A stretch of 64,000 nt of DNA from the NCBI GenBank assembly GCA_032433765.1, contig JAVIAB010000159.1, forward strand, positions 1,550,001 to 1,614,000, in the 5' to 3' direction. The position numbers were made by a program, and so were the translations under genes. This document shows, piece by piece, positions 3,158 to 63,978 of this stretch (its first letter is position 1; each line of letters starts with the position of its first letter). Under the pieces are notes generated by a model. It was not told where the DNA came from. It saw nothing but the letters and a program-made list of their open reading frames with translations, and did no database searches. This DNA is from Megaustenia siamemsis. Taxonomy: Eukaryota > Mollusca > Gastropoda > Stylommatophora > Ariophantidae.

Positions 3158-3415
3158 ATGCTATAAGCATTAACTACTTCAAATATCATGCTTACATCAA
3201 TATAGATGCACTAAAAATGGTACTTTTGTGCGTGGAGTCACAAATTCAAACCACTTGCATAAAGTCTACATTTTTAGAATAAGTGGAATGTGTTAGGCTC
3301 AAGACATCATTCATAAAGACTGCAACATTTCCTAGATCATGAAACTAAACTAAAATTCCACTTTGAAAAGAAAACAAACAGCTGTGACTTTCTCTAATAT
3401 TAAAATTTACTGGAA

Positions 3416-3535
3416 ACAGTCAGTCTGTGCTTGGAGAAATGATGAGATGGGCAGTGGTGTAATATTATAACTTAATGTAACAATTAGTCTGTGTTTGGAG
3501 AAATGATGAGATGGGCAGTGGTGTAGATATAGGGA
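3416..3535. repeat. 64-bp repeat, two units
   Basis: About two units of CAGTCAGTCTGTGCTTGGAG plus AAATGATGAGATGGGCAGTG. The same place in the second duplicated block carries about eleven irregular units (60262-61010), so this repeat expanded there or contracted here after duplication. Confidence 0.85.
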
Positions 3536-4550
3536 TGCCTCGATTGCAGTGATGAAACAGATTCCATATATAGAAAGGAGATGTCTGTAACACACAGCAA
3601 CCTCACAATGTTGATGAGTATAATTCATCTGTGCTGGCTTGATCAATATATGTGCTAGTATTTCTCCATATTTTTGAAGCTATTATCAGATGTTGAGAGG
3701 AGAGTGTGCAGGGACTGTTTCACTGACTGAAAAGCTGGTGTATGGTGATCAAAACCTGGGGTAGACAGAAAGGATTTGTTCTATTGGGGGTGAAATAACA
3801 ATTATGCGCCTTATACGTCAAGGTCACTGCTTTGACCAATTGGCCTTTATTTCTTTGTTCCCGTCGAGAGGGCCCCTCCCCAACCTGACATATACAATCT
3901 GATGTATATTGTAGATGTTTCATAAGTGACACAGACATCTATGGTGTAGGCTCGCTTGTTAGCTCTCTATGAACTAGTTTGTCTGGCATCATCATTGTCT
4001 GTGACTGTCTCAATAATTCACTTTCTTTAGCTCCAGAAACAAGTCTAATTGTCTAGGTGGAGTGCCTGTCTGCTCTCTAAAAGCTAGGTCTAATGTTTTA
4101 TTCATTATTAAGGCACTGTTTCTGCTATTTAATTCAGTATTTATTGTGTCCATATTCTTGTAATCTGTGCTGGTAATTTACCTCCAATTTCACCCATTTT
4201 GATATCAGCCATAAGCAAATTCATTCCTGAAGATTTATGCATTGAACCACATGGAGCAAAGCACCATGCATTGTTATCTTGTAAAATGTGAATGAAGATG
4301 ATTTTATTTCCTCTATAATTATTGCAATATCTAACGTGTCAGTCAATAAGTTGTGAAGTAACATTAGAATGTGTTTTGTTTGATTATTTGTTGGTTTTTT
4401 CAATTGTTGTGTTAATGTTTCTACACGTCTGTTTTTGTGCTCTTCTATTTGTGTTCATGTGTCTACACATGTCTAGAATAACGAAATATATCATCACACA
4501 ATCTTACATTTATCTACTTTGTTAATGTTTGCCCATGTTTTAACATTTCT

Positions 4551-4658
4551 CTTTGTGTATGAGGGGCCAGCAATATTCGTTTATTATATTCTCAGACGTA
4601 TTATCTTTGTGTATGAGGGGCCAGCAATATTCGTTTATTATATTCTCAGACGTATTAT
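4551..4658. repeat. 54-bp repeat, two units
   Basis: Two perfect 54-bp units containing GTGTATGAGGGGCCAGCAAT. The period is a multiple of three, so all frames stay open and false ORFs appear on both strands. The duplicated block has eight units at 62029-62458. Confidence 0.95.
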
Positions 4659-4841
4659 CCACCCTCACGAATGTATGTGGAAGCAGGAAAATATCGAAGG
4701 AGATTGAGACAGAAACTGAGCTCATTGAAAGATAAATGTTTCAGTAAAATACTTTGCATTAAATGGAGTGAGTTCAAGACTAATGATGAAATAAGAGAAC
4801 TAGCCATGCAACCATTTACCTCGTCTATTTTTGCGAATATA

Positions 4842-6175
4842 CGTAGGGAGGTCAAAAAGTAATGCACACCAATTTTTTTCTCGGAAACTATTCGGGCAAA
4901 ATGTGTGAAATTTTCACAGATTGTAGCTGAACATCCCCTTTACACTACCTATTTTTCAACATAATCTCCGTCCAAGCGTATTGCCTTACGCCAACGCGAA
5001 ACTAGGTCATGAATGCCTCGTTTATACCAAGTTTTGTCCTGCTCGCGTAGCCATTTTTTAACTGCACGGATCACATCCTCATCATTGTCAAAGTGTGTCC
5101 CACGCAGGAATTTTTTGAGTGGTCCAAACAGATGGAAATCTGAGGGAGCCAGATCAGGGCTGTAAGGAGGATGGGGCAGTACAGTCCAACCACATTTGTT
5201 GATTGCTTCCCGTGTTACCAGACTTGTGTGAGGGCGTGCATTGTCATGTTGAAGCAACAAATCTGCAGATGGCTTATTAGGCTGAACTCTGTGGAACCGA
5301 TTTTTGAGTTTTGTCAGTGTATTGATGTAAGCTGTCGAGTTGATTGTCTCACCTCTTGTCATTACATCAACAAGAATCACACCATCAATGTCCCAGAAGA
5401 CAGTGATCATCACCTTTCCGGCTGATGGAGATGTTTTGAATTTTTTTCTTTTTGGTGACTGCGGATGATGCCATTCCATTGACTGCATTTTTGTTTCAGG
5501 CTCATAATGTGCCCACGTTTCGTCACCAGTAACAATTTTTGACAAAAACATTTCTCCTTCAACACCGAAACGCTCCAACAATTCAGAACAGAATGTTTTC
5601 CTTTGAACTCTGTGATCATTTGTTAGGCACCGAGGAACCCATCGAGCGCAAATCTTTGAATATCCGAGAGTTTTAAAAATTGCGATTACACTTCCCTTGC
5701 TGACTGTAAGCTGCAATGCCAATTGCTGACTAGTGATACGCCTATCCTTACGAATAATGGCATCAGCCCGGTTTAACATGTCTGTGCTGGTAGCCGAGGC
5801 AACACGTCCAGAACGCGGTAAATCATGCAGCTCCACTCGTACACTTTCTGCAGCTTTAATTCTCTGAACCCAGCGACTAACTGTGCTCCTATCGACTGCA
5901 GAACATTTGTACACTGCACACAGTCGTTTATGAATGTTTGCCACGGTTTCTTTTTCCGCAACCAGAAATTCTATGACAATTCGCTGTTTGTAACGGACAT
6001 TGTTGACAAGCTCCATTTTAACGGTTCATAGATTGCGTAATATTTATCAGAATGCTGTGCAATTTGGTGCACATAATTGGAACATGTCATATTCCAAGTG
6101 TGCAAAATTTCATATTCCTATCTTTATTATTAGTCGAGAAAAAAATTGGTGTGCATTACTTTTTGACCTCCCCTG
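4842..6175 (-). mobile_element. Mariner-family DNA transposon, copy 1
   Basis: A 1.33-kb element bounded by about 38-bp terminal inverted repeats. Both ends read GGGAGGTCAAAAAGTAATGC going inward. A TA dinucleotide lies directly outside each end (4840-4841 and 6176-6177), as expected for Tc1/mariner integration. The outermost bases of the two repeats differ slightly, by about a 1-bp indel. It holds one transposase gene on the minus strand. The same insertion with the same flanks is at 62642-63978, so it entered before the block was duplicated. Confidence 0.95.
4949..6016 (-). CDS. Mariner transposase (355 aa, open)
   Basis: Cut-and-paste transposase that would bind the element's inverted repeats and catalyse excision and TA-targeted integration. 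Two helix-turn-helix regions are visible, about residues 13-55 (ends STVSRWVQRIK) and 85-130, followed by the linker motif WVPRCLT. The catalytic triad is readable: D165 in VTGDETW, D258 in HDNARPHTS and D293 in YSPDLAPSDFHLF, with exactly 34 residues between the last two, the D34D signature of mariner. Length and the C-terminus (LDGDYVEK) fit a full-length protein, and the start MELVNNVRYK is the natural one. Compared with the second copy, one Tyr is missing just after the first catalytic motif (HYEPETK versus HYYEPETK), an in-frame 3-bp loss that may weaken activity. The single-exon frame has no internal stop. Confidence 0.93.
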   Translation of the reverse strand: MELVNNVRYKQRIVIEFLVAEKETVANIHKRLCAVYKCSAVDRSTVSRWVQRIKAAESVRVELHDLPRSGRVASATSTDMLNRADAIIRKDRRITSQQLALQLTVSKGSVIAIFKTLGYSKICARWVPRCLTNDHRVQRKTFCSELLERFGVEGEMFLSKIVTGDETWAHYEPETKMQSMEWHHPQSPKRKKFKTSPSAGKVMITVFWDIDGVILVDVMTRGETINSTAYINTLTKLKNRFHRVQPNKPSADLLLQHDNARPHTSLVTREAINKCGWTVLPHPPYSPDLAPSDFHLFGPLKKFLRGTHFDNDEDVIRAVKKWLREQDKTWYKRGIHDLVSRWRKAIRLDGDYVEK

Positions 6176-16045: not shown

Positions 16046-16998
16046 AATAACTGCTGGAGACCCAGTACTTTCCCAAACGATATCGAAACCCTTGTGCTCA
16101 TCTGATATGTCTCCTCATGGAAAACATAAAATACCATAACTTTAGGAAAATATAACAGGAATCATGAAAAAAGGCACCCAATCAGACACAGAAAGAAAAC
16201 ACGTAGCAGAAAAACACATACACGATACCTACCCACAGGACTCTTTGTCCCACATATACACAGATGGCTCGGCTACAAATGCCACCAGAAATGGAGGGAG
16301 TGGTGTGTTCTTGACGCTGAATAATCAGGATGAGACCACCAAATCAAGAGCTACTGGGAAATTCTCAAACAACTTTAAAGCAGAAACTGAGGCCATCAGA
16401 GATGCTGCAACACTGGCTACTCAACACAAAAATAACATGCACAATAAATTGGTGATTCTGACTGATGCACTGTCAGTACTATCAGCTCCAAAAAGCCACA
16501 AGAACAATGAACTAGATGACTTGAGAACAACCTTGGACCAACTATTCAATAACTTCCAGAGTAGTCATCCAGTGGAAACCATCATACTGTAATATACACG
16601 GGAACGAACTCGCAGACAAATTAGCTAAAGAGGGAGGGAGATTACCACAAGAGAACCATCCGCTCAGTTATGATGAAGCCAAATTCATCCTCAAGGGTCA
16701 GTTCCATGAAAAATGGAAACGAGAACACCCAAAGCATAACGAGAGTGACGGATACCACCAACTATCAAGGAGGGATCAAGTCATCATACTTCGCCTACGC
16801 ACAGGCCACAATAGAATGATAAATCACATGTTCACCAAATTCAAAATAGGAACTACCAGCCTATGCCACTGTACACTGGACAAAATGACTACAAATCGTG
16901 TTCTTTTGATTGCCCCCAGTACACGGACCTGAGAAGAGCAATGTGGTCCACGCCCACTTCCCTGGAAAAGAAACTATATGGGGCAATCGATTCGCTTA
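16046..16998 (+). pseudogene. Ingi/I-like LINE fragment with RNase H domain
   Basis: About 90% identical by eye to 37380-38330 of the fuller LINE. RNase H motifs are visible: HIYTDGSA, AETEAIRDA and LVILTDALSVL, then HGNELADKLAKEGG in another frame. A Cys-His module (CHCTLDKMTTNRV) follows. In the third motif TDA replaces the TDS of the fuller copy but keeps the Asp. Frame breaks near 16590 and later make it inactive. It ends abruptly at about 16998, where a different LINE begins. Confidence 0.9.
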
Positions 16999-17002
16999 GA
17001 AT

Positions 17003-17355
17003 TGTAGATTTATAGAAGAATAGGAAGAATTGAATGGTTTGAAAAGAAAACAAACGATGAAGTCTTACAGGAACTAATAATGACAAGAGAACTACTAAAC
17101 ACAATTTAAACTTTAAACAAGAAAAGTGAGATTTTTGGTGCATGTTAAAAGACACAGCAGCCTACTAATAGTAATCTTGGAAGGGAAAATACAAGGTAAC
17201 AGAGACAGAATAAGACTAACATGGACGAGTAACATCAAAAGATGGACAAGAAACCTATGACAACTTGCACCATCAAAGCAAGAGACAGAGCGGAATGGCG
17301 CTCCATGGTAGCCCCAACCCGCGATACGGAGACGGCACTGAATGATGATGACGAG
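17003..17355 (+). pseudogene. RTE-like LINE 3' fragment
   Basis: Same family as 31045-32654, covering IYRRIGRIEWFEKKTN to the terminus and ending in a GATGATGA tail. It is fused without a gap to the preceding Ingi-like LINE piece. No shared frame continues across the junction. Confidence 0.88.
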
Positions 17356-17394: not shown

Positions 17395-18108
17395 ATGATC
17401 AAGATTGGCCTTGCTAGAAGGATCAAGATTGGCCTTGTTAGGACTTGCTAGAAGGATCAAGATTGGCCTTGTTTGGCCTTGTTAGATGGATCAAGATTGG
17501 CCTTGTTTGGCCTTGCAGGTATGATCAAGATTGGCCTTGTTTGGCCTTGCAGGTATGATCAAGATTGGCCTTGTTTGGCCTTGCAGAAAGGATCAAGATT
17601 GGCCTTGTTTGGCCTTGCAGAAAGGATCAAGATTGGCCTTGTTTGGCCAAACTAGAAGGATCAAGATTGGCCTTGTTTGGCCAAACTAGAAGGATCAAGA
17701 TTGGCCTTGTTTGGCCTTGCAGAAAGGATCAAGATTGGCCTTGTTTTGCCTTGCTAGAAGGATCAAGATTGGCCTTGTTTGGCCTTGCAGGAAGGATCAA
17801 GATTGGCCTTGTTTGGCCTTGCAGAAAGGATCAAGATTGGCCTTGTTTGGCCTTGCTAGAAGGATCAAGATTGGCCTTGTTTGGCCTTGCTAGAAGGATC
17901 AAGATTGGCCTTGTTTGGCCTTGCAGGTATGATCAAGATTGGCCTTGTTTGGCCTTGCTAGAAGGATCAAGATTGACCTTGTTTGGCCTTGCAGGTAGGA
18001 TCAAGAACGGCCTTATTAGGACTTGCAGGTAGGATCAATATTAGCCTTTTTTGGCCTTGCTAGAAGGATCAAGATTTGCCTTGTTTGGCCTTGCTAGAAG
18101 GATCATGG
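17395..18108. repeat. 34-bp tandem array (left of EGF pseudogene)
   Basis: About 21 units of GGATCAAGATTGGCCTTGTT plus TGGCCTTGCTAGAA, with CAGGTAT and CAGAAA variants. The same repeat resumes for 3-4 units at 20878-20995. The apparent ORFs across it (for example GLAERIKIGLVWPC) are repeat artefacts. Confidence 0.96.
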
Positions 18109-20870: not shown

Positions 20871-20877
20871 GGGGGAA

Positions 20878-20995
20878 GGATCAAGATTTGCCTTGTTTGG
20901 CCTTGCTAGAAGGATCAAGATTTGCCTTGTTTGGCCTTGCAGGAAGGATCAATATTGGCCTTGTTTAGCCCTGCTAGATGGATCTAGATTGGCCG
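20878..20995. repeat. 34-bp tandem array (right of EGF pseudogene)
   Basis: Three to four units of GGATCAAGATTTGCCTTGTT plus TGGCCTTGC, the same repeat and orientation as 17395-18108. Confidence 0.93.
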
Positions 20996-21027
20996 TGTTC
21001 TCTGAAAATTAGTCTAAAACCACAGGA

Positions 21028-32654: not shown

Positions 32655-32831
32655 TGATGACCACCTTATGCCACCTGTTCCTGTATTCTAAATGTTCTTA
32701 GACCGTTAACTTCCTGCCATCGCCCTACACTTAACAGGTGACTTATCTAGACTGTCTCTAACTCACATCTGATCAATATATGTGTTTGGAATCTCCACCT
32801 AAACTCCTATTTAAGAAAGATTATTTTGCTC

Positions 32832-33612
32832 TATTCCCACTGAACGAGCCGACGCCTAGTAACGCTGCTGCCTCCTAGCTAGCTCTCTCTAAGTCTTGGA
32901 TCTGTTCCTACTGAACGAGCCGATGCCTAGTAACGCTGCTGCCTCCTAGCTAGCTCTCTCTAAGTCTTGGATCTGTTCCCACTGAACGAGCCGACGCCTA
33001 GTAACGCTGCTGCCTCCTAGCTAGCTCTCTCTAAGTCTTGGATCTGTTCCCACTGAACGAGCCGACGCCTAGTAACGCTGCTGCCTCCTAGCTAGCTCTC
33101 TCTAAGTCTTGGATCTGTTCCCACTGAACGAGCCGACGCCTAGTAACGCTGCTGCCTCCTAGCTAGCTCTCTCTAAGTCTTGGATCTGTTCCCACTGAAC
33201 GAGCCGACGCCTAGTAACGCTGCTGCCTCCTAGCTAGCTCTCTCTAAGTCTTGGATCTGTTCCCACTGAACGAGCCGACGCCTAGTAACGCTGCTGCCTC
33301 CTAGCTAGCTCTCTCTAAGTCTTGGATCTGTTCCCACTGTATGAGCTGACGCCTAGTAACGCTGCTGCCTCCTAGCTAGCTCTCTCTAAGTCTTGGATCT
33401 GTTCCCACTGAACGAGCCAACGCCTAGTAACGCTGCTGCCTCCTAGCTAGCTCTCTCTAAGTCTTGGATCTGTTCTCACTGAACGAGCCGACGCCTAGTA
33501 ACGCTGCTGCCTCCTAGCTAGCTCTCTCTAAGTCTTGGATCTGTTCCCACTGAACGAGCCGACGCCTAATAACGCTGCTGCCTCCTAGCTAGCTCTCTCT
33601 AAGTCTTGGATT
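32832..33612. repeat. 71-bp tandem array (11 copies)
   Basis: Units contain CACTGAACGAGCCGACGCCT and TCCTAGCTAGCTCTCTCTAA, with period 71 bp checked by position. Units are very similar, which suggests recent amplification. No coding sequence. Confidence 0.96.
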
Positions 33613-34454: not shown

Positions 34455-34686
34455 GGGCAGATGGTGCTCGTAAGCCTGGGAGAGCCGACCATCTAAGGGC
34501 AGAATCCACCTACAGAAAAGACAATCTGCTGCCTTGCAGGAAGATTGGGGACAATCAAAGACTAGTTAGGGAAAGCAAACCTGAATAAAATGCTGGCTGA
34601 AATCAGATGCACTGGGCCATTGGCGCAGAACACAGTGCAACGTTTTAACAAGTAATCAATCAGACTGGATCTAACAGACTCTAATT

Positions 34687-36213
34687 ATGATAGAAACTAC
34701 CGCTGACAGGAAAGGCTTCAAGAAACAGCTGAATATAGTACACTGGAATGTGGAGGGCATATACCACAAAAAACAAGCTCTAACAATCAGACTAGCAGAG
34801 GAGGAGATAGACGTTGCCTGCATCCAGGAATCTCATCTTAATCCTCAGCACAGATTTATGATCAGGGGCTACCAAACATTTAGACAAGACAGGGAAGGTC
34901 ACAAGGGTGGAATTCTTATACTTATTAAAAATTCCATCCCAGCAAAACTGATAGATGTAGTCACAAACGGAGAGGCAGAGATCATTGGTACAGACCTATA
35001 CATTAACTCCGCTAGTATAAGGATATTTAATATATACTGTCCAAATGACAAATCACTGAAGCTGGAGTCAATGGAAATAACACCATCAAAGTGTCTGGTA
35101 GTAGGAGACATTAACAGTCACTCTGAAAGATGGGGATATAAGGAGTCCAATGTTCGAGGTGAAGAAGTGGAAGAATGGGAAATAGACAACAACCTATTCC
35201 TCATAAACTCTAGGGAGGACCCCCCAACCTTCTACTCAAGAAGATGGAAAACAACTTCCACTCCCGACCTAGCATTTGCAACTGGAGACATATCTATCAA
35301 AATAACCAGAAAAGTGCTGAACCAACTTGGTGATAGTGACCATAGACCAGTCAAACTTTCAGTGGCTCTTGCTCACAAACAGGAGTTGCAAATACCTCTT
35401 CCCCGCTGGAACTGTAAGAGAGCAGATTGGGCAAAGTTTGCAAGGCTCACTGATGCATATACTGCGCCTATCAACACCCACGAAAAGAGGGTCAATAATA
35501 TGATAGAGCGGTTAACAAATGGAATCCTGAGAGCTGCTAAAGAATCCATTCCTAGAGGAGCAAGAAGAAACTACAAGCCATACTGGAGCAAGGAAATACA
35601 AAGACTAGAAGAGGAACTGGACTCTGCCAGAGAACTAGCTGAAACATCACACAGCACAGAGAGCAACATTGTCTACAAAGCAGCCTCGGCCAAATACAGA
35701 CGAGAGGTCATGATATCAGCAAGACAGAGCTGGATAGACAAAACAGAGAGCCTTAATCTAGACACAAATGGTCATAAACTATGGAAACTTGCGAAAGCTC
35801 TGAGCGACGAAAACAACTGCCGACCTCCAATATCATTAACACTCAATCAGAACATCCTCACAGGCAAAAGGGCAGCAGATCTACTGATAGAGACTTACAA
35901 AAACATTCCAATAGACAAACAGAAAGCTGCAAGGCAGGAAAACCAAGATGCAAAACACATGCCTTTAGCACCAGAAAAGCATCAGACAACCATCTTTACC
36001 CTAACTGAATTAGATGTTGCCCTCAAAGGATTGAAGCTCAAAAGTTCCCCTGGTAAAGATGGAATCTCCAACGAAATGCTCCTAAATCTGGGGCAGAAAG
36101 CCAAGAGCCAGCTTCTAAGGATAATAAATGCTAGCTGGAAGAGAGGTCATGTGCTGGCAATCTGGAAAGAAGCTATTATGGTGCCACCGTCAAGCGTGGA
36201 AAAGACCCACTAG
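34687..36213 (+). pseudogene. LINE ORF, part 1: endonuclease and start of RT
   Basis: A 508-residue open part. The endonuclease (about residues 15-225) shows HWNVEG (N21), CIQESHL (E48), VVGDINSHSERWG (D141, N143) and GDSDHRPV (D217 and H219 of the SDH motif), so its catalytic set is complete. RT begins after about residue 430 with KLKSSPGKDGISNEMLLNLG. The frame is lost near 36190, just before the expected SSYRPISLL block, which continues at 36220 in another frame. The endonuclease would nick the target and RT prime there. Confidence 0.9.
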
Positions 36214-36957
36214 ACCCAAGTAGCTATAGACCAATTAGCCTACTGAGCTGCCTGAGTAAACTTATGGAAAGGCTGGTTAACAGAGGACGTATGTGGCATT
36301 TGGAGAGAAACAACAAATCGTACCACAACAAAGTGGCTTCCGTCAGCACAGATCAACTGAAGACCTGGTCACCTACATTGCACAGGAAATAGAGGATACT
36401 CTACTAGAAAAGAAACACACACGGCAGTGTGGGTCGACATGGAGAAGGCTTTTGACAGGGTTTGGCGAGAGGATTTAAAGAACAAGCTTTTTAGACTTGG
36501 CATCCAGGGTCATTTATTCAATTGGGTCTCTCAATACCTTCAGGATAGAATGGCCAGAGTACAAGTTCAAGGTCAACTAAGTAAGAAGGTCTCTATCGAA
36601 CAAGGTGTCCCTCAAGGCAGAGTTTTGTCCCCAACACTCTTTTTAATTTTCATAAATGACATCGTAAAGGACATTCCACCCAGGATACACTCAGCAATAT
36701 ACGCAGATGATCTGGCGTTATGGGCTCGCGAGGAAAGTATGTTGGTAGCTGGACCCAGGATGCAAGATGCCCTAGGTGAACTTGAAAAATGGACGAACAC
36801 CTGGTTCTTACCAATCAATGAAAGAAAACCTACATATACAATTTTCAGCCTATCAAGAAACACACTCTCTGCAAATTTGAAGTTAAAGGATCATACACTC
36901 CCTATTGACCACAATCCAACATATCTTGGTGTCACCATGAATCGCAGAATGCCTTGA
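36214..36957 (+). pseudogene. LINE ORF, part 2: RT palm
   Basis: Continues across shifted frames with SSYRPISLLSCLSKLMERL, QQSGFRQHRSTEDLV, WVDMEKAFDRVW (first catalytic Asp), EQGVPQGRVLSPTLF and AIYADDLALW (catalytic YADD). Catalytic residues survive, but at least two frame breaks and the stop at 36955 disable it. Confidence 0.9.
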
Positions 36958-38380
36958 AAAATCAGATAGACAGAGCAAGGATGAAAGCCAGACAATGAAC
37001 AAATATTATGAAGAAATTGGCAGGAACGGACTGGGGGGCAGACAGCAATATTTTGAAAAGACTATACGTAGGAAGAGTCAGGCCAGTTCTAGAGTATGGA
37101 GTCACAGCCTGGGCTATGGCTTCCAAATCACAACTTAGCAAAATTAACAGAACACAGAACCAAGCTGCCCGTATCATCACTGGTGCTATGAAATCTACGC
37201 CTATCAGGACTCTAGAAACAGTAACAGGTTTACAACCCTTAGATGATAGACGGGTCACTAAAGTATTGCAACAAGCAGAGAAATATAGAAGGCTCCTTAG
37301 CCACCCCATGCACCAAAGAATATCTGGTTCCGGAATTGTACGACTAAAGAGGAGCAACTTCGCTGCAATTGCCAATGAACTAACTACTGGAGACCCAGTA
37401 CTTTCCCAAACAATATCGAAACCTTTGAGCCCATCTGATATATCTCCTCATGGAAAACATAAAATACCAGAACTTAAGGAAAATATAACAGGAATCATGA
37501 AAAAAGGCACCCAATTAGACACAGAAAGAAAATACGTAGCAGAAAAACACATACACGATACCTACCCACAGGACACTTAGTCCCACATATATACAGATGG
37601 CTCTGCTACAAATGCAACCAGAAATGGAGGGGGTGGTGTGTTCTTGACGCTGAATAATCAGGATGAGATCACAAAGTCAATAGCTACTGGAAAATTCTCA
37701 AACAACTTTAAAGCAGAAGCTGAGGCCATCAGAGATGCTGCAACACTGGCTACTCAACACAAAAATAACATGCACAATAAATTGGTGATTCTGACTGATT
37801 CACTGTCAGTACTATCAGCTCTAAAAAGCCCCAAGGACAATGAACTAGATGACTTGAGAACTACCCTGGTCCAACTATGCAATAACCTCCAGAGAGTTGT
37901 CATCCAATGGATACCATCACACTGTAATTTACACGGGAACGAACGCTCAGATAAATTAGCTAAAGAGGGAGGGAGATTACCATAAGAGAACCATCCACTC
38001 AGTTATGATGAAGCCAAATCCCTCCTCAAGGGTCAGTTCCATAAAAAATGAAAACGTGAACACCCAAAGCATAACGAGAGTGACGTATACCACCAACTAT
38101 CAAGGAGGGATCAAGTCATCATACTTCGCCTACGCACAGGCCACAATAGAATGAGAAATCACATGTTCACCAAATTCAAAATAGGTACTACCAGCCCATG
38201 CCACTGTACACTGGACAATATGACTACAAATCATGTTCTACATGATTGCCCCCAGTACGCAGATCTGAGAAGAGCAATGTGGTCCACGCCCACCTCCCTG
38301 GAGGAGAAACTATATCGGGCAATCGATTCACTTAAACAGACAGCTGACTTCATGATGAAGTCTGTAATCCTACTCTGACT
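36958..38380 (+). pseudogene. LINE ORF, part 3: RT thumb, RNase H, Cys-His end
   Basis: Thumb: AGTDWGADSNILKRLYVGRV, VRPVLEYG. RNase H: HIYTDGSA, AEAEAIRDA, VILTDSLSVL and QWIPSHCNLHGNERSDKLA, so D, E, D and the final D are present. After a stop comes CHCTLDNMTTNHVLHDCP, a C-x-C-x8-H-x4-C module. The stop at 37578-37580 separates thumb from RNase H. The Cys-His module is the counterpart of the unit amplified in the 66-bp satellite at 45790-49405. Confidence 0.88.
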
Positions 38381-38400
38381 CTTGATCGCAGAGAGAGAGA

Positions 38401-45439: not shown

Positions 45440-45790
45440 TTGTTGTAGACATTGATCTAAGAGAAACACTCACCAATCTCTATCAGAAATGCAACTGATC
45501 TGTTGTTCTGTAGATCCCATCTCACTGCAATATCCCTGGAAATGATGAGCTTGACAATTTGGCAAAAAAAGGTGTCAAATTACACCATCCAAACACAAGT
45601 ACAACTTAAGAAGAGTCAGATAGTGCTGTCAGGTACACATTTATAAACATGCAATTCAGATCATCAGCTTTATCAGAAAAACGACATCTGCTGCCAGCTG
45701 AACAGAAAAGAACAAGTAACAATATTTTGTCTTTGAACAGACCACAACAGATTCATGGACCACCATTTTGACACACTGAGTATAGGAATC
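45440..45790 (+). pseudogene. Ingi-like LINE C-terminal region (RNase H end)
   Basis: Plus-strand pieces read IPSHCNIPGNDELDNLAKKG (RNase H end, matching IPSHCNLHGNERSDKLAKEG at 37910), then TDHNRFMDHHFDTLSIG (matching TGHNRMRNHMFTKFKIG near 38140), directly followed by NECDCGTDKMMSKHLLQSCP. Frame breaks lie between these pieces. It leads without interruption into the 66-bp satellite, whose first unit is this LINE's Cys-His module. Confidence 0.75.
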
Positions 45791-48700
45791 ACCAATGAAT
45801 GTGACTGTGGCACAGACAAAATGATGTCTAAACATCTGCTACAATCATGCCCAACATGTGATGAATGTGACTGTGGCACAGACAAAATGATGTCTAAACA
45901 TCTGCAACAATCATGCCCAACATGTGATGAATGTGGCTGTGGCACAGACAAAATGATGTCTAAACTTCTGCAACAATCATGCCCAACATGTGATGAATGT
46001 GGCTGTGGCACAGACAAAATGATGTCTAAACTTCTGCAACAATCATGCCCAACATGTGATGAATGTGACTGTGGCACAGACAAAATGATGTCTAAACATC
46101 TGCTACAATCATGCCCAACATGTGATGAATGTGACTGTGGCACAGACAAAATGATGTCTAAACATCTGCTACAATCATGCCCAACATGTGATGAATGTGA
46201 CTGTGGCACAGACAAAATGATGTCTAAACATCTGCAACAATCATGCCCAACATGTGATGAATGTGGCTGTGGCACAGACAAAATGATGTCTAAACTTCTG
46301 CAACAATCATGCCCAACATGTGATGAATGTGGCTGTGGCACAGACAAAATGATGTCTAAACTTCTGCAACAATCATGCCCAACATGTGATGAATGTGACT
46401 GTGGCACAGACAAAATGATGTCTAAACATCTGCTACAATCATGCCCAACATGTGATGAATGTGACTGTGGCACAGACAAAATGATGTCTAAACATCTGAT
46501 ACAATCATGCCCAACATGTGATGAATGTGACTGTGGTACAGACAAAATGATGTCTAAACATCTGCTACAATCAAACCCAACATGTGATGAATGTGACTGT
46601 GGCACAGACAAAATGATGTCTAAACATCTGCTACAATCAAACCCAACATGTGATAAATGTGACTGTGAATAGACAAAATAACTGCTGACCATCTGCTACA
46701 ATCATGCCCAACATGTGATAAATGTGACTGTGAATAGACAAAATAACTGCTGACCATCTGCTACAATCATGCCCAACATGTGATGAATGTGACTGTGAAT
46801 AGACAAAATAACTGCTGATCATTTGCTACAATCAAACCCTACATATGATAAATGTGACTTGTGGCACTTCCAAAATAAGAGCTGAACATCTACTACATTC
46901 ATACCCAACATGTGATGAATGTGACTGTGGTACAGACAAAATAAGAGCTGAACATCTACTACATTCATACCCAACATGTGATGAATGTGACTGTGGCACA
47001 GACAAAATAAGAGATGAACATCTACTACATTCATACCCAACATGTGATGAATGTGACTGTGGTACAGACAAAATAAGAGCTGAACATCTACTACATTCAT
47101 ACCCTACATTAAATGAATGTGACTGTGGTACAGACAAAATAAGAGCTGAACATCTACTACATTCATACCCAACATGTGATGAATGTAACTGTGGTACAGA
47201 CAAAATAAGAGATGAACATCTACTACATTCATACCCAACATGTGATGAATGTGACTGTGGTACAGACAAAATAAGAGCTGAACATCTACTACATTCATAC
47301 CCAACATGTGATGAATGTGACTGTGGTACAGACAAAATAAGAGATGAACATCTACTACATTCATACCCAACATGTGATGAATGTAACTGTGGTACAGACA
47401 AAATAAGAGCTGAACATCTACTACATTCATACCCAACATGTGATGAATGTGACTGTGGTACAGACAAAATAAGAGCTGAACATCTACTACATTCATACCC
47501 AACATGTGATGAATGTGACTGTGGTACAGACAAAATAAGAGATGAACATCTACTACATTCATACCCAACATGTGATGAATGTGACTGTGGTACAGACAAA
47601 ATAAGAGCTGAACATCTACTACATTCATACCCAACATTAAATGAATGTGACTGTGGTACAGACAAAATAAGAGCTGAACATCTACTACATTCATACCCAA
47701 CATGTGATGAATGTAACTGTGGTACAGACAAAATAAGAGATGAACATCTACTACATTCATACCCAACATGTGATGAATGTGACTGTAGTACAGACAAAAT
47801 AAGAGATGAACATCTACTACATTCATACCCAACATGTGATGAATGTGACTGTGGTACAGACAAAATAAGAGATGAACATCTACTACATTCATACCCAACA
47901 TGTGATGAATGTGACTTGTGGCACTTCCAAAATAAGAGCTGAACATCTACTACATTCATACCCAACATGTGATGAATGTGACTTGTGGCACTTCCAAAAT
48001 AAGAGCTGAACATCTACTACATTCATACCCAACATGTGATGAATGTGACTGTGGTACAGACAAAATAAGAGCTGAACATCTACTACATTCATACCCAACA
48101 TGTGATGAATGTGACTGTGGTACAGACAAAATAAGAGCTGAACATCTACTACATTCATACCCAACATTAAATGAATGTGACTGTGGTACAGACAAAATAA
48201 GAGCTGAACATCTACTACATTCATACCCAACATGTGATGAATGTGACTGTGGTACAGACAAAATAAGAGATGAACATCTACTACATTCATACCCAACATG
48301 TGATGAATGTGACTGTGGTACAGACAAAATAAGAGCTGAACATCTACTACATTCATACCCAACATGTGATGAATGTGACTGTGGTACAGACAAAATAAGA
48401 GCTGAACATCTACTACATTCATACCCAACATTAAATGAATGTGACTGTGGTACAGACAAAATAAGAGCTGAACATCTACTACATTCATACCCAACATGTG
48501 ATGAATGTGACTGTGGTACAGACAAAATAAGAGATGAACATCTACTACATTCATACCCAACATGTGATGAATGTGACTGTGGTACAGACAAAATAAGAGC
48601 TGAACATCTACTACATTCATACCCAACATTAAATGAATGTGACTGTGGTACAGACAAAATAAGAGATGAACATCTACTACATTCATACCCAACATGTGAT

Positions 48701-49405
48701 GAATGTGACTGTGGTACAGACAAAATAAGAGATGAACATCTACTACATTCATACCCAACATGTGATGAATGTGACTTGTGGCACTTCCAAAATAAGAGCT
48801 GAACATCTACTACATTCATACCCAACATGTGATGAATGTGACTTGTGGCACTTCCAAAATAAGAGCTGAACATCTACTACATTCATACCCAACATTAAAT
48901 GAATGTGACTGTGGTACAGACAAAATAAGAGCTGAACATCTACTACATTCATACCCAACATGTGATGAATGTGACTGTGGTACAGACAAAATAAGAGCTG
49001 AACATCTACTACATTCATACCCAACATGTGATGAATGTGACTGTGGTACAGACAAAATAAGAGCTGAACATCTACTACATTCATACCCAACATGTGATGA
49101 ATGTGACTGTGGTACAGATAAAATAAGAGCTGAACATCTACTACATTCATACCCAACATGTGATGAATGTGACTGTGGTACAGACAAAATAAGAGCTGAA
49201 CATCTACTACATTCATACCCAACATGTGATGAATGTGACTTGTGGCACTTCCAAAATAAGAGCTGAACATCTACTACAATCATACCCAACATGTGATGAA
49301 TGTGACTGTGGTACAGACAAAATAAGAGCTGAACATCTACTACATTCATACCCAACATGTGATGAATGTGACTTGTGGCACTTCCAAAATAAGAGCTGAA
49401 CATCT
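45790..49405. repeat. 66-bp satellite derived from a LINE Cys-His module (~54 units)
   Basis: Three blocks. 45790-46650 has 13 units translating to DECDCGTDKMMSKHLLQSCP-type repeats. 46650-46840 has three shortened units with GTGAATAGACAAAATAACTG. 46840-49405 has about 38 units of the type CDCGTDKIRAEHLLHSYPTC, with scattered 67-bp units carrying TTGTGGCACTTCCA. Variants (GCTGAACA/GATGAACA, ACATTAAATG/ACATGTGATG) recur in a higher-order pattern. The 66-bp period keeps all frames open, giving long false ORFs on both strands (up to 393 residues). If the zinc-finger gene model holds, the array is intronic, ending about 135 bp before the exon at 49541. Confidence 0.95.
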
Positions 49406-49540
49406 ACGTCCATTAACATTGCCAGGTCCTTTACCATTAATGTCTGCCTGATTTACCCAGCTGTATATGTTTATGTGCTCCCATAATTCTATTTTATTTT
49501 ACTTGTGATGTGTTCTAAATGTACAAAATAATATTTCCAG

Positions 49541-49658
49541 GGTCAGACAGTAAAGACCGAAGCAAACAGAGAGGAAGAAAGTGATGTGTCCACTGTTATT
49601 AAGATGGAACAGACTAATTCTCCATCTCTTTCTTGTCCTGACAATGACAGTTTTCTAT
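49541..49658 (+). CDS. Zinc-finger cassette A, exon 1
   Basis: A 118-nt exon with acceptor ATATTTCCAG and donor GTAAGT, entering in phase 0 and leaving in phase 1. It codes for GQTVKTEANREEESDVSTVI, then KMEQTNSPSLSCPDNDSFL. VKTE and IKME are psi-K-x-E motifs and the peptide is acidic, as in linker regions of transcription factors. A near-identical exon is at 52281-52398. Conservation of both splice sites and the frame between the two copies supports it as real. Confidence 0.75.
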
Positions 49659-49809
49659 GTAAGTTTTATCTGACAACTTGAGTATGTCTGTTTTTACTTG
49701 GTCAGTTCATGTTGACAATTATTTCACACTTTGTATCTCATTTCACATTGCCATCTTTGTCAGTCTGTATGTTAAAACCACTCCTTTGATAATCCATTTC
49801 TTTGTTCAG

Positions 49810-49886
49810 ATTGTGAGAAATATCAGCAGAAATTTGAAGGAAGTTGTCCTGAGCATGGACCTTTTGTCTATATGGATAATGCTGAG
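49810..49886 (+). CDS. Zinc-finger cassette A, exon 2 (PRDM-type knuckle, degenerate)
   Basis: A 77-nt exon, acceptor CTTTGTTCAG, donor GTAAAG, phase 1 in and 0 out. It codes for YCEKYQQKFEGSCPEHGPFV and MDNAE. The spacing equals the C-x2-C-x7-C-x2-H zinc knuckle that precedes the SET domain in PRDM9/PRDM11-type proteins. The second Cys is Tyr here (TGT to TAT), so the knuckle should not bind zinc normally. Cassette B keeps all four ligands. No SET domain follows. Confidence 0.75.
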
Positions 49887-50131
49887 GTAAAGTACACAAT
49901 TACAGCTAACAACACTTGTAGTCATCTATTAAGATATTGATGTTACTATTTGCACACACAACAGGGTCAGTCACTCATTTAGATTGTCAAATACAAATGT
50001 TATAGTTTTATTCCCACAATTCAAAGCTTCAAAATAAACAAAGACAATATTTTAGACTATAAGAGTTACATCCCACTTCAACATTTAAATTGGTGATTTA
50101 TTTTTATATTTTAATCTCTGCTTCTTCTCAG

Positions 50132-51277
50132 GCAGGTCAAGGTGATGACTACAGTCAAGATACTAATCTCCAGGTGGTAAATGACAGTAATCCTAGACAA
50201 GTGATAGGGAAAGAGAAGGTGTTTCAGTGTCAAGTTTATTTGACTGGTTGTGATGATTATCAAGGTACAGAGTTTCGAACATGCAAGAGAAAACGTACAG
50301 GAAAGAAGTCTTACAAATGTGATGTGTGTGGTGTAAGTTTTACTAAACATTGCACTCTAATAAGACACAAGAGAAAACATACAGGAGAGAAGCCTTACAA
50401 ATGTGATGTGTGTGGTGTAAGTTTTACTCAAAGTAGCAATTTAAAGATACACAAGAGAACACATACAGGAGAGAAGCCTTACAAATGTGATGTCTGTGGC
50501 ATAAGTTTTACAGAAACTGGCCATCTAAAGACACACAAGTGAACACATACAGGAGAGAAGCCTTACAAATGCGATGTGTGTAGTGTATGCTTTACTCGAA
50601 ATTGGAGTCTAACAGTGCACAAGAGAAAACATACAGGAGAAAAACCTTACGAATGTGATGTTTGCGATGAAAGTTTTGCTCATTCTGGCGATCTAATTAT
50701 ACACAAGAGAAAACATACAGGAGAAAAACCTTACAAATGTGATGTTTGCGATGAAAGTTTTGCTCACGCTGGCAATCTAATTATACACAAGAGAAAACAT
50801 ACAGGAGAAAAACCTTACAAATGTGATGTTTGCGATGAAAGTTTTGCTCACGCTGGCAATCTAATTATACACAAGAGAAAACATACAGGAGAGAATCCTT
50901 ACAAATGTGAAGTGTGTGGTGTAAGTTTTGCTCAAAGTGTACGTCTAATTGTGCACAAGAGAACACATACAGGAGAGAAGCCTTACAAATGCAATGTGTG
51001 TGGTGTATGCTTTACTCAAAATTGGAGTCTAACAGTGCACAAGAGACAACATACAGGAGAAAAACCTTACAAATGTGATGTTTGCAATGAAAGTTTTACT
51101 CACGCTGGCAATCTAATTATACACAAGAGAAAACATACTGGAGAGAAGCCTTACAAATGTGAAGTGTGTGGTGTAAGTTTTATTCGCAGTGCCAGTTTAC
51201 ATTGTCATAAGAGAAAACATACAGGAGAGATGCCTTACAAATGTGAAGTGTGTGATGTAAGTTTCACTAACACGTGA
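50132..51277 (+). pseudogene. Zinc-finger cassette A, terminal exon with ~11 C2H2 fingers and one stop
   Basis: The exon opens after TTCTTCTCAG in phase 0 with [16 protein letters not shown]. After a degenerate first finger come eleven C2H2 fingers of form [23 protein letters not shown] joined by TGEKP linkers; a partial twelfth runs into the stop at 51277. Nuclear sequence-specific DNA binding is the family role. One in-frame TGA at 50540-50542 (HK-stop-THTGEKP) replaces the AGA found in every other linker and cuts the protein after three fingers. Recognition helices vary (KHCTLIR, QSSNLKI, RNWSLTV, HAGNLII and others). Either a recent pseudogene, or a short three-finger product is made. Confidence 0.85.
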
Positions 51278-51964: not shown

Positions 51965-52125
51965 TTCCCAGATGTTGAGTTGAGTTATTTGTGGGTCATC
52001 ATCATTGCACTCCCAACAAGTCCATAGATGCTCAGATCCCCTCCTCAGCAATTCATGCAGTATCCAGCGACTGACAACTCTAGTTCTGTGTTTTTTTATA
52101 AGTCTTCTTATATGTCCACTGAGAC
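51965..52125 (-). pseudogene. RNase H-LINE C-terminal scrap at the cassette junction
   Basis: The minus strand reads LIKKHRTRVVSRWILHELLR and SEHLWTCWECNDDD, the family of 38815-39285. It sits exactly at the junction of the two tandem zinc-finger units, and a longer version follows unit 2 at 55268. Confidence 0.82.
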
Positions 52126-52280
52126 AAAATAACTGCTGATCATCTATGTCCATTAGCATTGCCAGGTCCTTTACCATTAATGTCTGTCTGATTTACCCAG
52201 CTGTATATGCTTATGTGCTCTCATAATTCTATTTTATTTTACTTGTGATGTGTTCTAAATGTACAAAATAATATTTCCAG

Positions 52281-52398
52281 GGTCAGACAGTAAAGATGGA
52301 AGCAAACAGAGAGGAAGAAAGTGATGTGTCCACTGTTATTAAGATGGAACAGACTAATTCTCCATCTCTTTCTTGTCCTGACAATGATAGTTTTCTAT
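52281..52398 (+). CDS. Zinc-finger cassette B, exon 1
   Basis: Counterpart of 49541-49658, with acceptor ATATTTCCAG and donor GTAAGT conserved, phase 0 in and 1 out. It codes for GQTVKMEANREEESDVSTVI and KMEQTNSPSLSC. The only amino-acid change seen is T to M in VKTE/VKME, which keeps the psi-K-x-E pattern. Confidence 0.75.
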
Positions 52399-52550
52399 GT
52401 AAGTTTTATCTCACAACTTGAGTTATGTCTGTTTTTACTTGGTCAGTTCATGTTGACAATTATTTCACACTTTGTATCTCATTTCACACTGCCATCTTTG
52501 TCAGTCTGTATGTTAAAACCACTGCATTGATAATCCATTTCTTTGTTCAG

Positions 52551-52627
52551 ATTGTGAGAAATGTCAGCAGAAATTTGAAGGAAGTTGTCCTGAGCATGGA
52601 CCTTTTGTCGATAATAATTATGCTGAG
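52551..52627 (+). CDS. Zinc-finger cassette B, exon 2 (intact PRDM9-like zinc knuckle)
   Basis: A 77-nt exon, acceptor CTTTGTTCAG, donor GTAAAG. It codes for CEKCQQKFEGSCPEHGPFV then DNNYAE. All four ligands of the C-x2-C-x7-C-x2-H knuckle are present, with the HGP motif that follows it in PRDM9. In PRDM9 the knuckle belongs to a pre-SET segment; here the next exon goes straight to zinc fingers. Either the SET exons were lost, or this is a knuckle-plus-finger architecture. Confidence 0.75.
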
Positions 52628-52878
52628 GTAAAGTACACAATTACAGCTACCAACACTTGTAGTCATCTATTGATATTAAGATATTGATGTTACTATTTGC
52701 ACACACAACAGGGTCAGTCACTCATTTAGATTGTCACATACAAATGTTATAGTTTTATTCCCACAATTCAAAGCTTCAAAATAAACAAAGACAATATTTT
52801 AGACTATAAGAGTTACATCCCACTTCAACATTTAAATTGATGATTTATTTTTATATTTTAATCTCTGCTTCTTCTCAG

Positions 52879-55058
<2,180 letters not shown>

Positions 55059-60004: not shown

Positions 60005-60261
60005 TGCTATAAGCATTAACTACTTCAAATATCATGCTTACATCAATATAGATGCACTAAAAATGGTACTTTTGTGTGTGGAGTCACAAATTCAAACCAC
60101 TTGCATAAAGTCTACATTTTTAGAATAAGTGGAATGTGTTAGGCTCAAGACATCATTCATAAAGACTGCAACATTTCCTAGATCATGAAACTAAACTAAA
60201 ATTCCACTTTGAAAAGAAAACAAACAGCTGTGACTTTCTCTAATATTAAAATTTACTGGAA

Positions 60262-61010
60262 ACAGTCAGTCTGTGCTTGGAGAAATGATGAGATGGGCGG
60301 TGGTGTAATATTATAACTTAATGTAACAGTCAGTCTGTGCTTGGAGAAATGATGAGATGGGCAGTGGTGTAATATTATAACTTAATGTAACAGTCAGTCT
60401 ATGCTTGGGAGAAGATGCATGAGATGGGCAGTGGGTGTAATATTATAACTATAATGTAACAGTCAGTCTGTGCTTGGAGAAATGATGAGATGGGCAGTGG
60501 TGTAATAGTGGTGTAATGATGTATAATATTTAATGTAACAGTCAGTCTGTGCTTGGAGAAATGATGTGATGGGCAGTTGGAGTAATAGTCATGATGTGAT
60601 GGGCAGTGGTGTAATATTATGTAACAGTCAGTCTGTGCTTGGAGAAATGATAAGTGTAACAGTCAGTCTGTGCTTGGAGAAATGATGAGATGACTTAATG
60701 TAACAGTCATGAAATGTGGTGTAATATTATAACTTAATGTAACAGTCAGTCTGTGCTTGGAAATGATGAGATGGGCAGTGGTGTTATAACTTAATGTAAT
60801 AGTCAGTCTGTGCTTGGAGAAATGATTGGGATGAAGTCAGTCTGTGCTTGGAGAAATGATGTGATGGGCAGTGGTGGTTATAACTTAATGTAATAGTCAG
60901 TCTGTGCTTGGAGAAATGATGTGATGGGCAGTGGTGTAATGTTATAACTTAATGTAACAATCAGTCTGTGGTTGGAGAAATGAGGAGATGGGCAGTGGTG
61001 TTGATACAGG
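60262..61010. repeat. 64-bp array, irregular (~11 units)
   Basis: Units of CAGTCAGTCTGTGCTTGGAG plus AAATGATGAGATGGGCAGTG and TAATATTATAACTTAATGTAA. Several units are truncated or scrambled (60640-60720). Copy 1 has only two units (3416-3535). Confidence 0.92.
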
Positions 61011-62028
61011 GATGCCTCGATTGCAGTGACGAAACAGATTCCATATATAGAAAGGAGATGTCTGTAACACACAGCAATCTCACAATGTTGATGAGTATAA
61101 TTCATCTGTGCTGGCTTGATCAATATATGTGCTAGTACTTCTCCATATTTTTGAAGCTATTTATCAGATGTTGAGAGGAGAGTGTGCAGCGACTGTTTCA
61201 CTGCCTGAAAAGCTGGCGTATGGTGATCAAAACCTGGGGTAGACAGAAAGGATTTGTTCTATTGGGGGTGAAATAACAATTCTGAGCCTTAGACGTCAAG
61301 GTCACTACTTTGACCAATTGGCCTTTATTTCTCTGGTCCCGTCGAGAGGGCCCCTCCCCAACCTGACATATACAATCTGATGTATATTGTAGATGTTTCA
61401 TAAGTGACACAGACATCTATGGTGTAGGCTCGCTTGTTAGCTCTCTATGAACTAGTTTGTCTGGCATCATCATTGTCTGTAACTGTCTCAATAATTCACT
61501 TTCTTTAGCTCCAGAAACAAGTCTAATTGTCTAGGTGGAGTCCCTGTCTGCTCTCTAAAAGCTAGGTCTAATGTTTTATTCATTATTAAGCCACTGTTTC
61601 TGCTATTTAATTCAATATTTATTTTTTTCCATATTCTTGTAATCTGTGCTGGTAATTTACCTCCAATTTCACCCATTTTGATATCAGCCATAAGCAAATT
61701 CATCATGAAGATTTATGCATTGAACCACATGGAGCAAAGCACCATGCATTGTTATCTTGTAAAATGTGAATGAAGATGATTTTATTTCCTCTATAATTAT
61801 TGCAATATCTAACGTGTCAGTCAATAAGTTGTGAAGTAACATTAGAATGTGTTTTGTTTGATTATTTGTTGGTTTTTTCAATTGTTGTGTTAATGTTTCT
61901 ACACGTCTGTTTTTGTGCTCTTCTATTTGTGTTCATGTGTCTACACGTCTAGAATAACGAAATATATCATCACACAATCTTACATTTATCTACTTTGTTA
62001 ATGTTTGCCCATGTTTTAACATTTCTCT

Positions 62029-62458
62029 TTGTGTATGAGGGGCCAGCAATATTCGTTTATTATATTCTCAGACGTATTATCTTTGTGTATGAGGGGCCAG
62101 CAATATTCGTTTATTATATTCTCAGACGTATTATCTTTGTGTATGAGGGGCCAGCAATATTCGTTTATTATATTCTCAGACGTATTATCTTTGTGTATGA
62201 GGGGCCAGCAATATTCGTTTATTATATTCTCAGACGTATTATCTTTGTGTATGAGGTGTCAGCAATATTCGTTTATTATATTCTCAGACGTATTATCTTT
62301 GTGTATGAGGTGCCAGCAATATTCGTTTATTATATTCTCAGACGTATTATCTTTGTGTATGAGGTGCCAGCAATATTCGTTTATTATATTCTCAGACGTA
62401 TTATCTTTGTGTATGAGGTGCCAGCAATATTCGTTTATTATATTCTCAGACGTATTAT
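62029..62458. repeat. 54-bp array (8 units)
   Basis: Eight units; the first four have GAGGGGCCAGC, the later ones GAGGTGTCAGC or GAGGTGCCAGC. Copy 1 has two units, both of the first type. The open frames (for example FVYEGPAIFVYYILRRII) are artefacts of the 54-bp period. Confidence 0.95.
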
Positions 62459-62641
62459 CCACCCTCACGAATGTATGTGGAAGCAGGAAAATATCGAAGG
62501 AGATTGAGACAGAAACTGAGCTCATTGGAAGATAAATGTTTCAGTAAAATACTTTGCATTAAATGGAGTGAGTTCAAGACTAATGATGAAATAAGAGAAC
62601 TAGCCATGCAACCATTTACCTCGTCTATTATTGAGAATATA

Positions 62642-63978
62642 CGTAGGGAGGTCAAAAAGTAATGCACACCAATTTTTTTCTCGGAAACTATTCGGGCAAA
62701 ATGTGTGAAATTTTCACAGATTGTAGCTGAACATCCGCTTTACACTACCTATTTTTCAACATAATCTCCGTCCAAGCGTATTGCCTTACGCCAACGCGAA
62801 ACTAGGTCATGAATGCCTCGTTTGTACCAAGTTTTGTCCTGCTCGCGTAGCCATTTTTTTAACTGCACAGATCACACCCTCATCATTGTCAAAGTGTGTC
62901 CCACGCAGGAATTTTTTGAGTGGTCCAAACAGATGGAAATCTGAGGGAGCCAGATCAGGGCTGTAAGGAGGATGGGGCAGTACAGTCCAACCAAATTTGT
63001 TGATTGCTTCCCGTGTTACCAGACTTGTGTGAGGGCGTGCATTGTCATGTTGAAGCAACAAATCTGCAGATGGCTTATTAGGCCGAACTCTGTGGAACCG
63101 ATTTTTGAGTTTTGTCAGTGTATTGATGTAAGCTGTCGAGTTGATTGTCTCACCTCTTGTCATTACATCAACAAGAATCACACCATCAATGTCCCAGAAG
63201 ACAGTGATCATCACCTTTCCGGCTGATGGAGATGTTAGGAATTTTTTTCTTTTTGGTGACTGCGGATGATGCCATTCCATTGACTGCATTTTTGTTTCAG
63301 GCTCATAATAATGTGCCCACGTTTCGTCACCGGTAACAATTTTTGACAAAAACATTTCTCCTTCAACACCGAAACGCTCCAACAATTCAGAACAGAATGT
63401 TTTCCTTTGAACTCTGTGATCATTTGTTAGGCACCGAGGAACCCATCGAGCGCAAATCTTTGAATATCCGAGAGTTTTAAAAATTGCGATTGCACTTCCC
63501 TTGCTGACTGTAAGCTGCAATGCCAATTGCTGACTAGTGATACGCCTATCCTTACGAATAATGGCATCAGCCCGGTTTAACATGTCTGTGCTGGTAGCCG
63601 AGGCAACACGTCCAGAACGCGGTAAATCATGCAGCTCCACTCGTACACTTTCTGCAGCTTTAATTCTCTGAACCCAGCGACTAACTGTGCTCCTATCGAC
63701 TGCAGAACATTTGTACACTGCACACAGTCGTTTATGAATGTTTGCCACAGTTTCTTTCTCCGCAACCAGAAATTCTATGACAATTCGCTGTTTGTAACGG
63801 ACATTGTTGACAAGCTCCATTTTAACGGTTCATAGATTGCGTAATATTTTTCAGAATGCTGTGCAATTTGGTGCACATAATTGGAACATGTCATATTCCA
63901 AGTGTGCAAAATTTCATATTCCTATCTTTATTATTAGCCGAGAAAAAATTGGTGTGCATTACTTTTTGACCTCCCCTG
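62642..63978 (-). mobile_element. Mariner-family DNA transposon, copy 2
   Basis: Same insertion as 4842-6175, with the same TIRs (GGGAGGTCAAAAAGTAATGC inward from both ends) and TA flanks (62640-62641 and 63979-63980). Confidence 0.95.
62807..63820 (-). pseudogene. Mariner transposase, C-terminally frameshifted
   Basis: The same protein as the copy at 4949-6016 up to about residue 320, with all three catalytic Asp residues (VTGDETW, HDNARPHTS, YSPDLAPSD) and the full HYYEPETK motif. One extra T in the poly(T) run at about 62853-62859 shifts the frame. The end becomes KKMATRAGQNLVQTRHS instead of continuing to DYVEK, losing about 35 residues. Probably inactive. An error in a homopolymer is possible. 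Confidence 0.9.

Follow-up and report, generated by a model that had tools for sequence, protein, structure and literature searches.

How does a stretch of retrotransposon coding sequence turn into a satellite, and does it do so once or repeatedly? The question is raised by a 64,000-nucleotide stretch of the gastropod Megaustenia siamemsis (contig JAVIAB010000159.1, positions 1,550,001 to 1,614,000; hereafter the window), which contains a 3.6-kb tandem array. We think it probable that this is one of a set of minisatellites born recurrently from dead copies of a long interspersed nuclear element (LINE), their birth seeded by a direct repeat, and that on at least one occasion an array passed from one locus to another. 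The segment concerned codes for the C-terminal Cys-His module of the second LINE open reading frame (ORF2). Satellite birth is usually hard to observe because the founder state has gone. In this genome, it seems, the founder state (single-module copies whose consensus carries a short direct repeat) survives beside short arrays (4-6 units) and long arrays (up to 67 units) of the same segment, and such arrays may help to show how tandem repeats are born.

The array in the window and the LINE sequence before it

Tandem Repeats Finder (TRF) reports the repeat as a single array at 45795-49407 (period 66, 54.7 copies, 95% matches). Parsing on conserved anchors from 45797 resolves it into 54 full units followed by a truncated 55th (45797-49407, forward strand), in agreement with the approximately 54-fold, 3.6-kb array described in an earlier reading of this DNA made without database searches (the sequence-only reading). 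Forty-five units are 66 bp long, three (units 14-16) are 65 bp and six (units 17, 33, 34, 46, 47 and 53) are 67 bp; 21 distinct sequences occur among the 54 full units. Head-to-tail, highly similar copies of one unit, as seen both by TRF and by unit parsing, define a satellite or minisatellite. The two are separated by a convention of size, and minisatellite fits better than classical satellite because the array measures 3.6 kb and lies beside zinc-finger genes.

Unit parsing and a motif count divide the array into blocks, all on the forward strand. Block A (45797-46654) consists of 13 units of the CDCGTDKMMSKHLLQSCPTCDE type (type A, units 1-13), with the Cys-His motif complete in 7 of the 13. 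Block B (46655-46849) has three 65-bp units, frameshifted and of the ITADHLLQSCP type. Block C/D (46850-49407), after unit 16, mixes 66-bp units of the KIRAEHLLHSYP type (type C) with 67-bp units bearing ACTTGTGGCACTTCC and ends in the truncated unit. The sequence-only reading had also proposed higher-order structure. This holds for the first 13 units: units 1-5 (45797-46126) are identical, in order, to units 6-10 (46127-46456), and a lag of 5 stands out in block A (0.62 vs 0.16; reached by 4 of 2000 shuffles). It does not extend to units 18-54, where no lag among 1-12 passed the cut (40 of 2000 shuffles). The ACATTAAATG (TTAAAT) units (20, 28, 36, 40, 43 and 47) are therefore recurrent without a regular period, and a regular higher-order repeat built on them is unsupported at these lags.

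The 356 bp before the array (45441-45796, forward strand) are a remnant of a LINE ORF2, frameshifted and with stop codons, in which the RNase H end (..IPSHCNIPGNDELDNLAKKG..) is followed by the run-up to the Cys-His module (TDHNRFMDHHFDTLSIG). The LINE-derived stretch starts near 45441 (profile match 45441-45868). When searched with tblastn, IPSHCNIPGNDELDNLAKKG (IPSHCN..) at 45514 matches a LINE of the same window at 37911 (E 2e-7 over the whole window), and TDHNRFMDHHFDTLSIG (TDHNR..) together with the first module, at 45737, matches it at 38136 (44% amino-acid identity, E 7e-10). The two matches are collinear, lying on the same strand and in the same order with spacings of 223 and 225 bp, and the remnant as a whole is collinear with the RNase H end of that LINE (34455-38400). 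Shuffled peptides reach neither score (0/2000 each). The tblastn matches, the profile and the shuffles thus bear out the earlier statement that the stretch before the array is retrotransposon-derived.

The window LINE is itself decayed. Its recognizable part (34675-38378, forward strand; domain search and tblastn) comprises endonuclease, reverse transcriptase and RNase H (Exo_endo_phos_2, RVT_1 and RNase_H), with the module CHCTLDNMTTNHVLHDCP at 38199-38252. A second copy of the family, truncated and with a single module, lies at 16146-16932 on the same strand (open reading frame list and sequence comparison). In pairwise DNA comparison the array segment gives no significant match to the window LINE and a weak one (E 0.004) to its second copy, although a DNA profile of three array loci detects both (E 5e-16 and 6e-18); judged by these comparisons, the window LINE is a member of a cousin family. 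As direct parent it is excluded by the 44% protein identity, by the weak pairwise DNA similarity and by its module, which matches type A units at 0.65 compared with 0.69-0.86 for the modules of 15 unexpanded copies elsewhere (see below). The link to this LINE that was drawn from the sequence alone is consequently retained as collinear homology with a relative, but not as descent.

Relatives of the window LINE in public data carry a single Cys-His module near their end, where the sequence extends to it. Among the 120 proteins listed of 139, the motif C-x1-3-C-x7-10-H-x4-C occurs exactly once in 67 and not at all in 53; none has more than one. The named relatives are mostly from molluscs, together with two nemertean entries and one bivalve-symbiont entry. 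Of the parent family only RNase H, module and tail were observed, together with a reverse transcriptase-like piece in L014 and an RNase H in L054, a truncated LINE copy that gave no full-length parent. Other minisatellites in the window (17405-18105, 20875-20999 and 32830-33611) start a short way downstream of further LINE copies, whose 3' ends lie near 17330 and 32654, and two of these arrays have a 34-bp unit in common.

Arrays at other loci and the unexpanded copies

The host genome assembly has 2,591,239,911 bases in 155 contigs. A three-unit query gives 211 matches, of which those listed represent at least 25 further array loci; together with the window locus they are spread over 14 contigs. 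The search for the array elsewhere in the genome, suggested by the sequence-only reading, therefore finds it repeatedly. These counts are lower bounds, and 10 kb was fetched around each of the 25 loci (L009-L033). Arrays contain from 4 to 67 units and most spacings are 66 bp. At all 26 loci mean unit identity is higher within the locus than between loci, the pattern of concerted evolution. Every unit has its nearest neighbour within its own locus at 14 of the 26 loci; the figure is 42 of 54 units in the window, 8/15 at L027, 1/8 at L028, 0/4 at L031 and 0/20 at both L012 and L013, which are duplicates of each other. Tandem arrays in general (period at least 10, score at least 80) cover 19,181 of the 64,000 window bases and 122,018 of 247,525 bases across the 25 loci, which were selected for having arrays.

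Where does the array sit within the LINE? Remnant-like DNA also precedes arrays at other loci and, after the array, many loci run into one common sequence (GATGAA followed by CAGAGAAGGCTCTTGTGGCC..), which reads as QRRLLWPSPVPYQDKLYGDVTSLELTNAFFELINIDV and a stop codon. Using related LINE proteins, tblastn shows the last unit running into this tail at several loci, including L009, L014, L015, L018, L022, L026 and L032. With real copies as queries, the run-up is found to the left at 19/26 loci, the tail to the right at 20/26 and both at 14/26; matches are at least 39 bp on both sides at nine loci. Short matches occur on the left at L012, L013, L015, L017 and L020 (14-22 bp) and on the right at L010 (16 bp). 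The window array has LINE sequence on its left side only and lacks the tail. An upstream search from L009 mostly matched an inserted repeat (query positions 174-363). Because the run-up lies to the left and the tail to the right, this sequence evidence places the expanded array within the C-terminal part of ORF2, between the module and the tail. The unit is homologous to LINE coding sequence and collinear LINE adjoins the array, as is characteristic of an ORF2-derived satellite.

Several loci show further kinds of repeat. Insertions inside an array that we read as SINE-like (short interspersed nuclear element-like) have been amplified along with it: L016 (5048-6117) has two copies in a higher-order array-plus-insert, and L025 (3407-7927) has four similar spacers that read as a SINE-like insertion in a similar higher-order repeat. 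The LINE tail of the parent family forms arrays of its own, of 94 bp in L015 (5290-6042) and 77 bp in L032 (5058-7087, oriented), and, from the spacing of tail matches, of about 104 bp at the places C26, C101 and C154.

Since the three-unit query favoured arrays, an array-blind sample was obtained by searching the genome with the tail alone. This gave 1906 first-look candidates and, among the matches listed, at least 27 further near-full-length tail places, in addition to the query itself and the known array locus L028. Twenty of the 27 were fetched, each with approximately 950 bp before the tail. Within this distance none of the 20 has a 66-bp array. Two have other unit-derived arrays (L052, 43/46 bp; L053, 52 bp) and three (L037, L041 and L045) are without a readable module. 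The remaining 15 carry a single module, similar to window type A at 0.69-0.86 and to type C at 0.67-0.83. Single-module LINE copies matching the 66-bp unit therefore exist in the genome and, together with the LINE-derived upstream sequence, support the earlier proposal that the array was seeded by one retrotransposon Cys-His module.

These unexpanded copies also show a candidate seed. In a 242-bp majority consensus of the 15, the longest exact direct repeat (spacings of at least 20) is TGATGAA, present in two copies 66 bp apart, one on each side of the module; it is the only repeat of 7 bp. Seven direct repeats have a length of 6 bp, one being TGAACA with a spacing of 33 bp. At one locus, L017, 19 of 38 steps are 33 bp, and its array end repeatedly reads GTTGAACATCTG.., as the TGAACA repeat predicts. 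In our own reading of L053, the 52-bp array has its junction at a CATC that occurs both in the module and in the tail. Repeat spacing fits array period at 66 bp and, at one locus, at 33 bp, so that simple counts can test the idea that short direct repeats determine which unit a new satellite adopts.

We would describe the birth as follows. The 66-bp segment encoding the ORF2 C-terminal Cys-His module in a dead LINE copy would have been tandemly duplicated by slippage or by microhomology-mediated repair between the two TGATGAA copies. Unequal exchange or further slippage would then have extended and homogenised the array, locus by locus. The divisibility of 66 by three would follow from the two heptamers sharing a reading frame and not from selection. 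To judge from their differing flanks, the same birth may have occurred at roughly twenty other insertions of the parent LINE family.

The growth of the arrays is at the DNA level and is non-coding. Units at several loci are shifted in frame: they measure 64 bp at L019 (5/5 steps), 65 bp at L033 (5/5) and, in one array, at L016 (12/16), and 58 bp at L027 (14/14) and L028 (5/7), while L032 has a stop codon in 5/5 units. Several arrays have amplified an already broken module. A coding array, with tandem Cys-His peptides translated and selected, might have been suspected from the frames in the window that are open for 311 and 376 amino acids, but long open frames also occur on the opposite strand, as expected of periodic sequence, and no homologous protein was found at E 0.01 among 3390 candidates (composition filters may matter here). 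The 65- and 67-bp units shift the frame, variable sites among the 45 66-bp window units are distributed 7/7/8 over the codon positions, and the C-x-C-x8-H-type peptide that the sequence-only reading attributed to the unit is preserved as the full C-x-C-x8-H-x4-C motif in just 7 of these 45, all in block A. On these three observations we reject a protein-coding array, to which we give practically no credence. Pfam matches of the array frames (GM_CSF, Sda, Homeobox_KN and others) were taken as spurious fits to the repeat; no stretch passed alone.

One birth or many

Among 300 pairs of the 25 loci, six show some degree of similarity to the left as well as to the right of the array, and long collinear duplication is confined to L012/L013. 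The group of loci associated with zinc-finger genes (the window, L012, L013, L016 and L031) may represent one event, which leaves about 21 other loci, minus one for the pair L027/L028.

That pair points to movement. Its 58-bp arrays (L027 4486-5326 and L028 4690-5176, oriented) lie 240 kb apart on one contig. Their units are 96-100% identical but their tails only 88.7% over 97 bp, with no other flank matching, and at least one array has therefore moved between loci. It is possible that this was general, with one array copied to the other loci by gene conversion or re-insertion of circular DNA and not reborn. Between loci, unit identity indeed shows no correlation with that of the tails (rho -0.13, p 0.21; 91 pairs, 14 loci). 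Any unit pair of at least 95% identity, however, occurs in only 2 of these 91 locus pairs (L027/L028 and L015/L018; up to 12 units per locus), so that recent copying is not the rule among the 14 loci. Mean unit identity between loci is 0.80 compared with 0.75 for the tails, and at 14 of the 26 loci the array is bordered left and right by LINE sequence in the correct order, clearly so at nine. We consider transfer an unlikely origin for the set as a whole.

Alternatively, the LINE itself might have been the vehicle: copies with several Cys-His modules would have retrotransposed, spreading the arrays by transposition, and each locus would later have been homogenised. At most loci the predominant spacing, 66 bp, is divisible by three, and L027/L028 share their derived 58-bp unit with no other common flanks, both of which would suit such an element. 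So would the clustering of array-bearing copies on a tree of the 125-bp tail, where the array state needs 6 changes (shuffled mean 11.1, minimum 7; 0/1000 as low). This tree, of 14 array copies and 20 tail-chosen ones, is short and combines two sets picked with different queries, and is weak evidence only. Against such an element are the lack of a 66-bp array in all 20 tail-chosen copies, the absence of a second module from the 120 LINE proteins listed and the amplification, in several arrays, of units that already carried a stop or frameshift. In addition, six LINE proteins compared with the 25 10-kb stretches reveal no complete ORF2 beside an array (the 20 short stretches could not have done so). 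We rate a mobile multi-module element as decidedly improbable; the related idea of a LINE lineage that had tandem zinc-knuckle-like Cys-His modules in its ORF2 and retrotransposed with them, leaving the satellites as its fossils, strikes us as very doubtful.

Recurrent birth from a direct repeat remains our preferred explanation, but the independence of the births is not proven. Apart from the tail tree, the lack of correlation between units and tails and the L027/L028 pair, two points weigh against it. Only 3 of the 15 unexpanded copies have a repeat of the TGATGAA kind as their longest at spacings of 50-74 (L040 at 62, L042 as TGATGGA at 67 and L044 at 66), and the tail query was taken from L015, which itself bears an array.

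Satellites derived from LINE ORF2 are already known as a kind; the recurrence and the readable seed are what we found new here. A review (PMC9659126) includes among its examples chicken HinfI (from CR1), Phodopus PROsat (L1) and seal Pvc 20 (L1). Like the window array, these are tandem repeats seeded by part of a LINE, ORF2 coding sequence included. In the review's listing each is a single named satellite, whereas here one 66-bp segment is arrayed at many LINE copies and the unexpanded copies show the candidate seed repeat. Satellites from the 3' ends of LINEs are also mentioned in the same source, where microhomology-mediated joining and slippage are considered as routes; LINE untranslated regions are named as satellite sources elsewhere (PMC12628747). 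The cetacean common satellite and the Drosophila HeT-A-derived satellite likewise have a LINE 3' end as source (PMC9659126), but are ascribed there to the 3' end or to 3' non-coding sequence, while the window-type unit is coding in origin. The 77-, 94- and about 104-bp arrays of the parent-family tail stand alongside these 3'-end satellites. In Crassostrea gigas, Helentrons provide another case of short satellite-like arrays scattered through a mollusc genome within mobile elements (PMC7492417, PMC8268682). According to these accounts the arrays sit centrally in rolling-circle elements; here the readable adjoining sequence is LINE and the array is its expanded coding end (Helentron ends were not searched for). 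The sequence-only reading knew of no standard description of such a satellite. This needs qualifying in view of the known ORF2-derived examples, but our searches of open-licence papers showed no account of one coding module arrayed repeatedly at separate insertions with both the unexpanded state and the direct repeat readable.

The zinc-finger flank and neighbouring elements

On its right the window array is fused, through a broken unit and without a LINE tail, to the 5' flank and putative exon of a zinc-finger gene (49408-49660, forward strand; sequence comparison). This flank (GTCCATTAACATTGCC..) has a tandem duplicate at 52148 and, at the matching junction of the duplicated gene, the central part of a B-type unit survives as a remnant of 22-24 bp (52122-52145, forward strand; sequence comparison). 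The C2H2 zinc-finger genes themselves (49540-51277 and 52280-55058) are tandem duplicates, and the same contig has further paralogs at L012, L016 and L031.

The related loci suggest how this arrangement arose. The locus has a duplicate in L016, 10.6-20.5 kb upstream of the window on the same contig, with 97% identity to the left of the array, 94% to the right and the same junction. L031 is 80% identical to the window over a 118-bp stretch spanning the left LINE edge and 96% identical in the zinc-finger flank; it keeps four diverged units (80% identical to each other) and a LINE tail. At L031 (position 6885), L012 (position 7486) and L013, non-array sequence precedes the zinc-finger flank, and the junctions at L031 and L012 are probably the ancestral state. 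We infer a single LINE insertion in the zinc-finger cluster, with an array of few units that predated the duplications. In the window lineage a deletion probably then removed the end of the array, the LINE tail and, given the array-to-flank distance in L031 and L012, perhaps 1.7-1.9 kb, so joining the array to the zinc-finger flank before the zinc-finger gene was duplicated. We are less certain that this insertion is also the one in L012 and L013, since not much LINE sequence remains ahead of their array.

Elsewhere in the window, two transposase copies, which we take to be mariner-type, occur in the same orientation at 4550-6025 and 62026-63829, each adjoining the same 54-bp minisatellite (2 and 8 copies, respectively). 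A similar 64-bp repeat lies farther out from both (3395-3530 and 60241-60507). The pair and its minisatellite may represent an element or segment in which the minisatellite varies in copy number.

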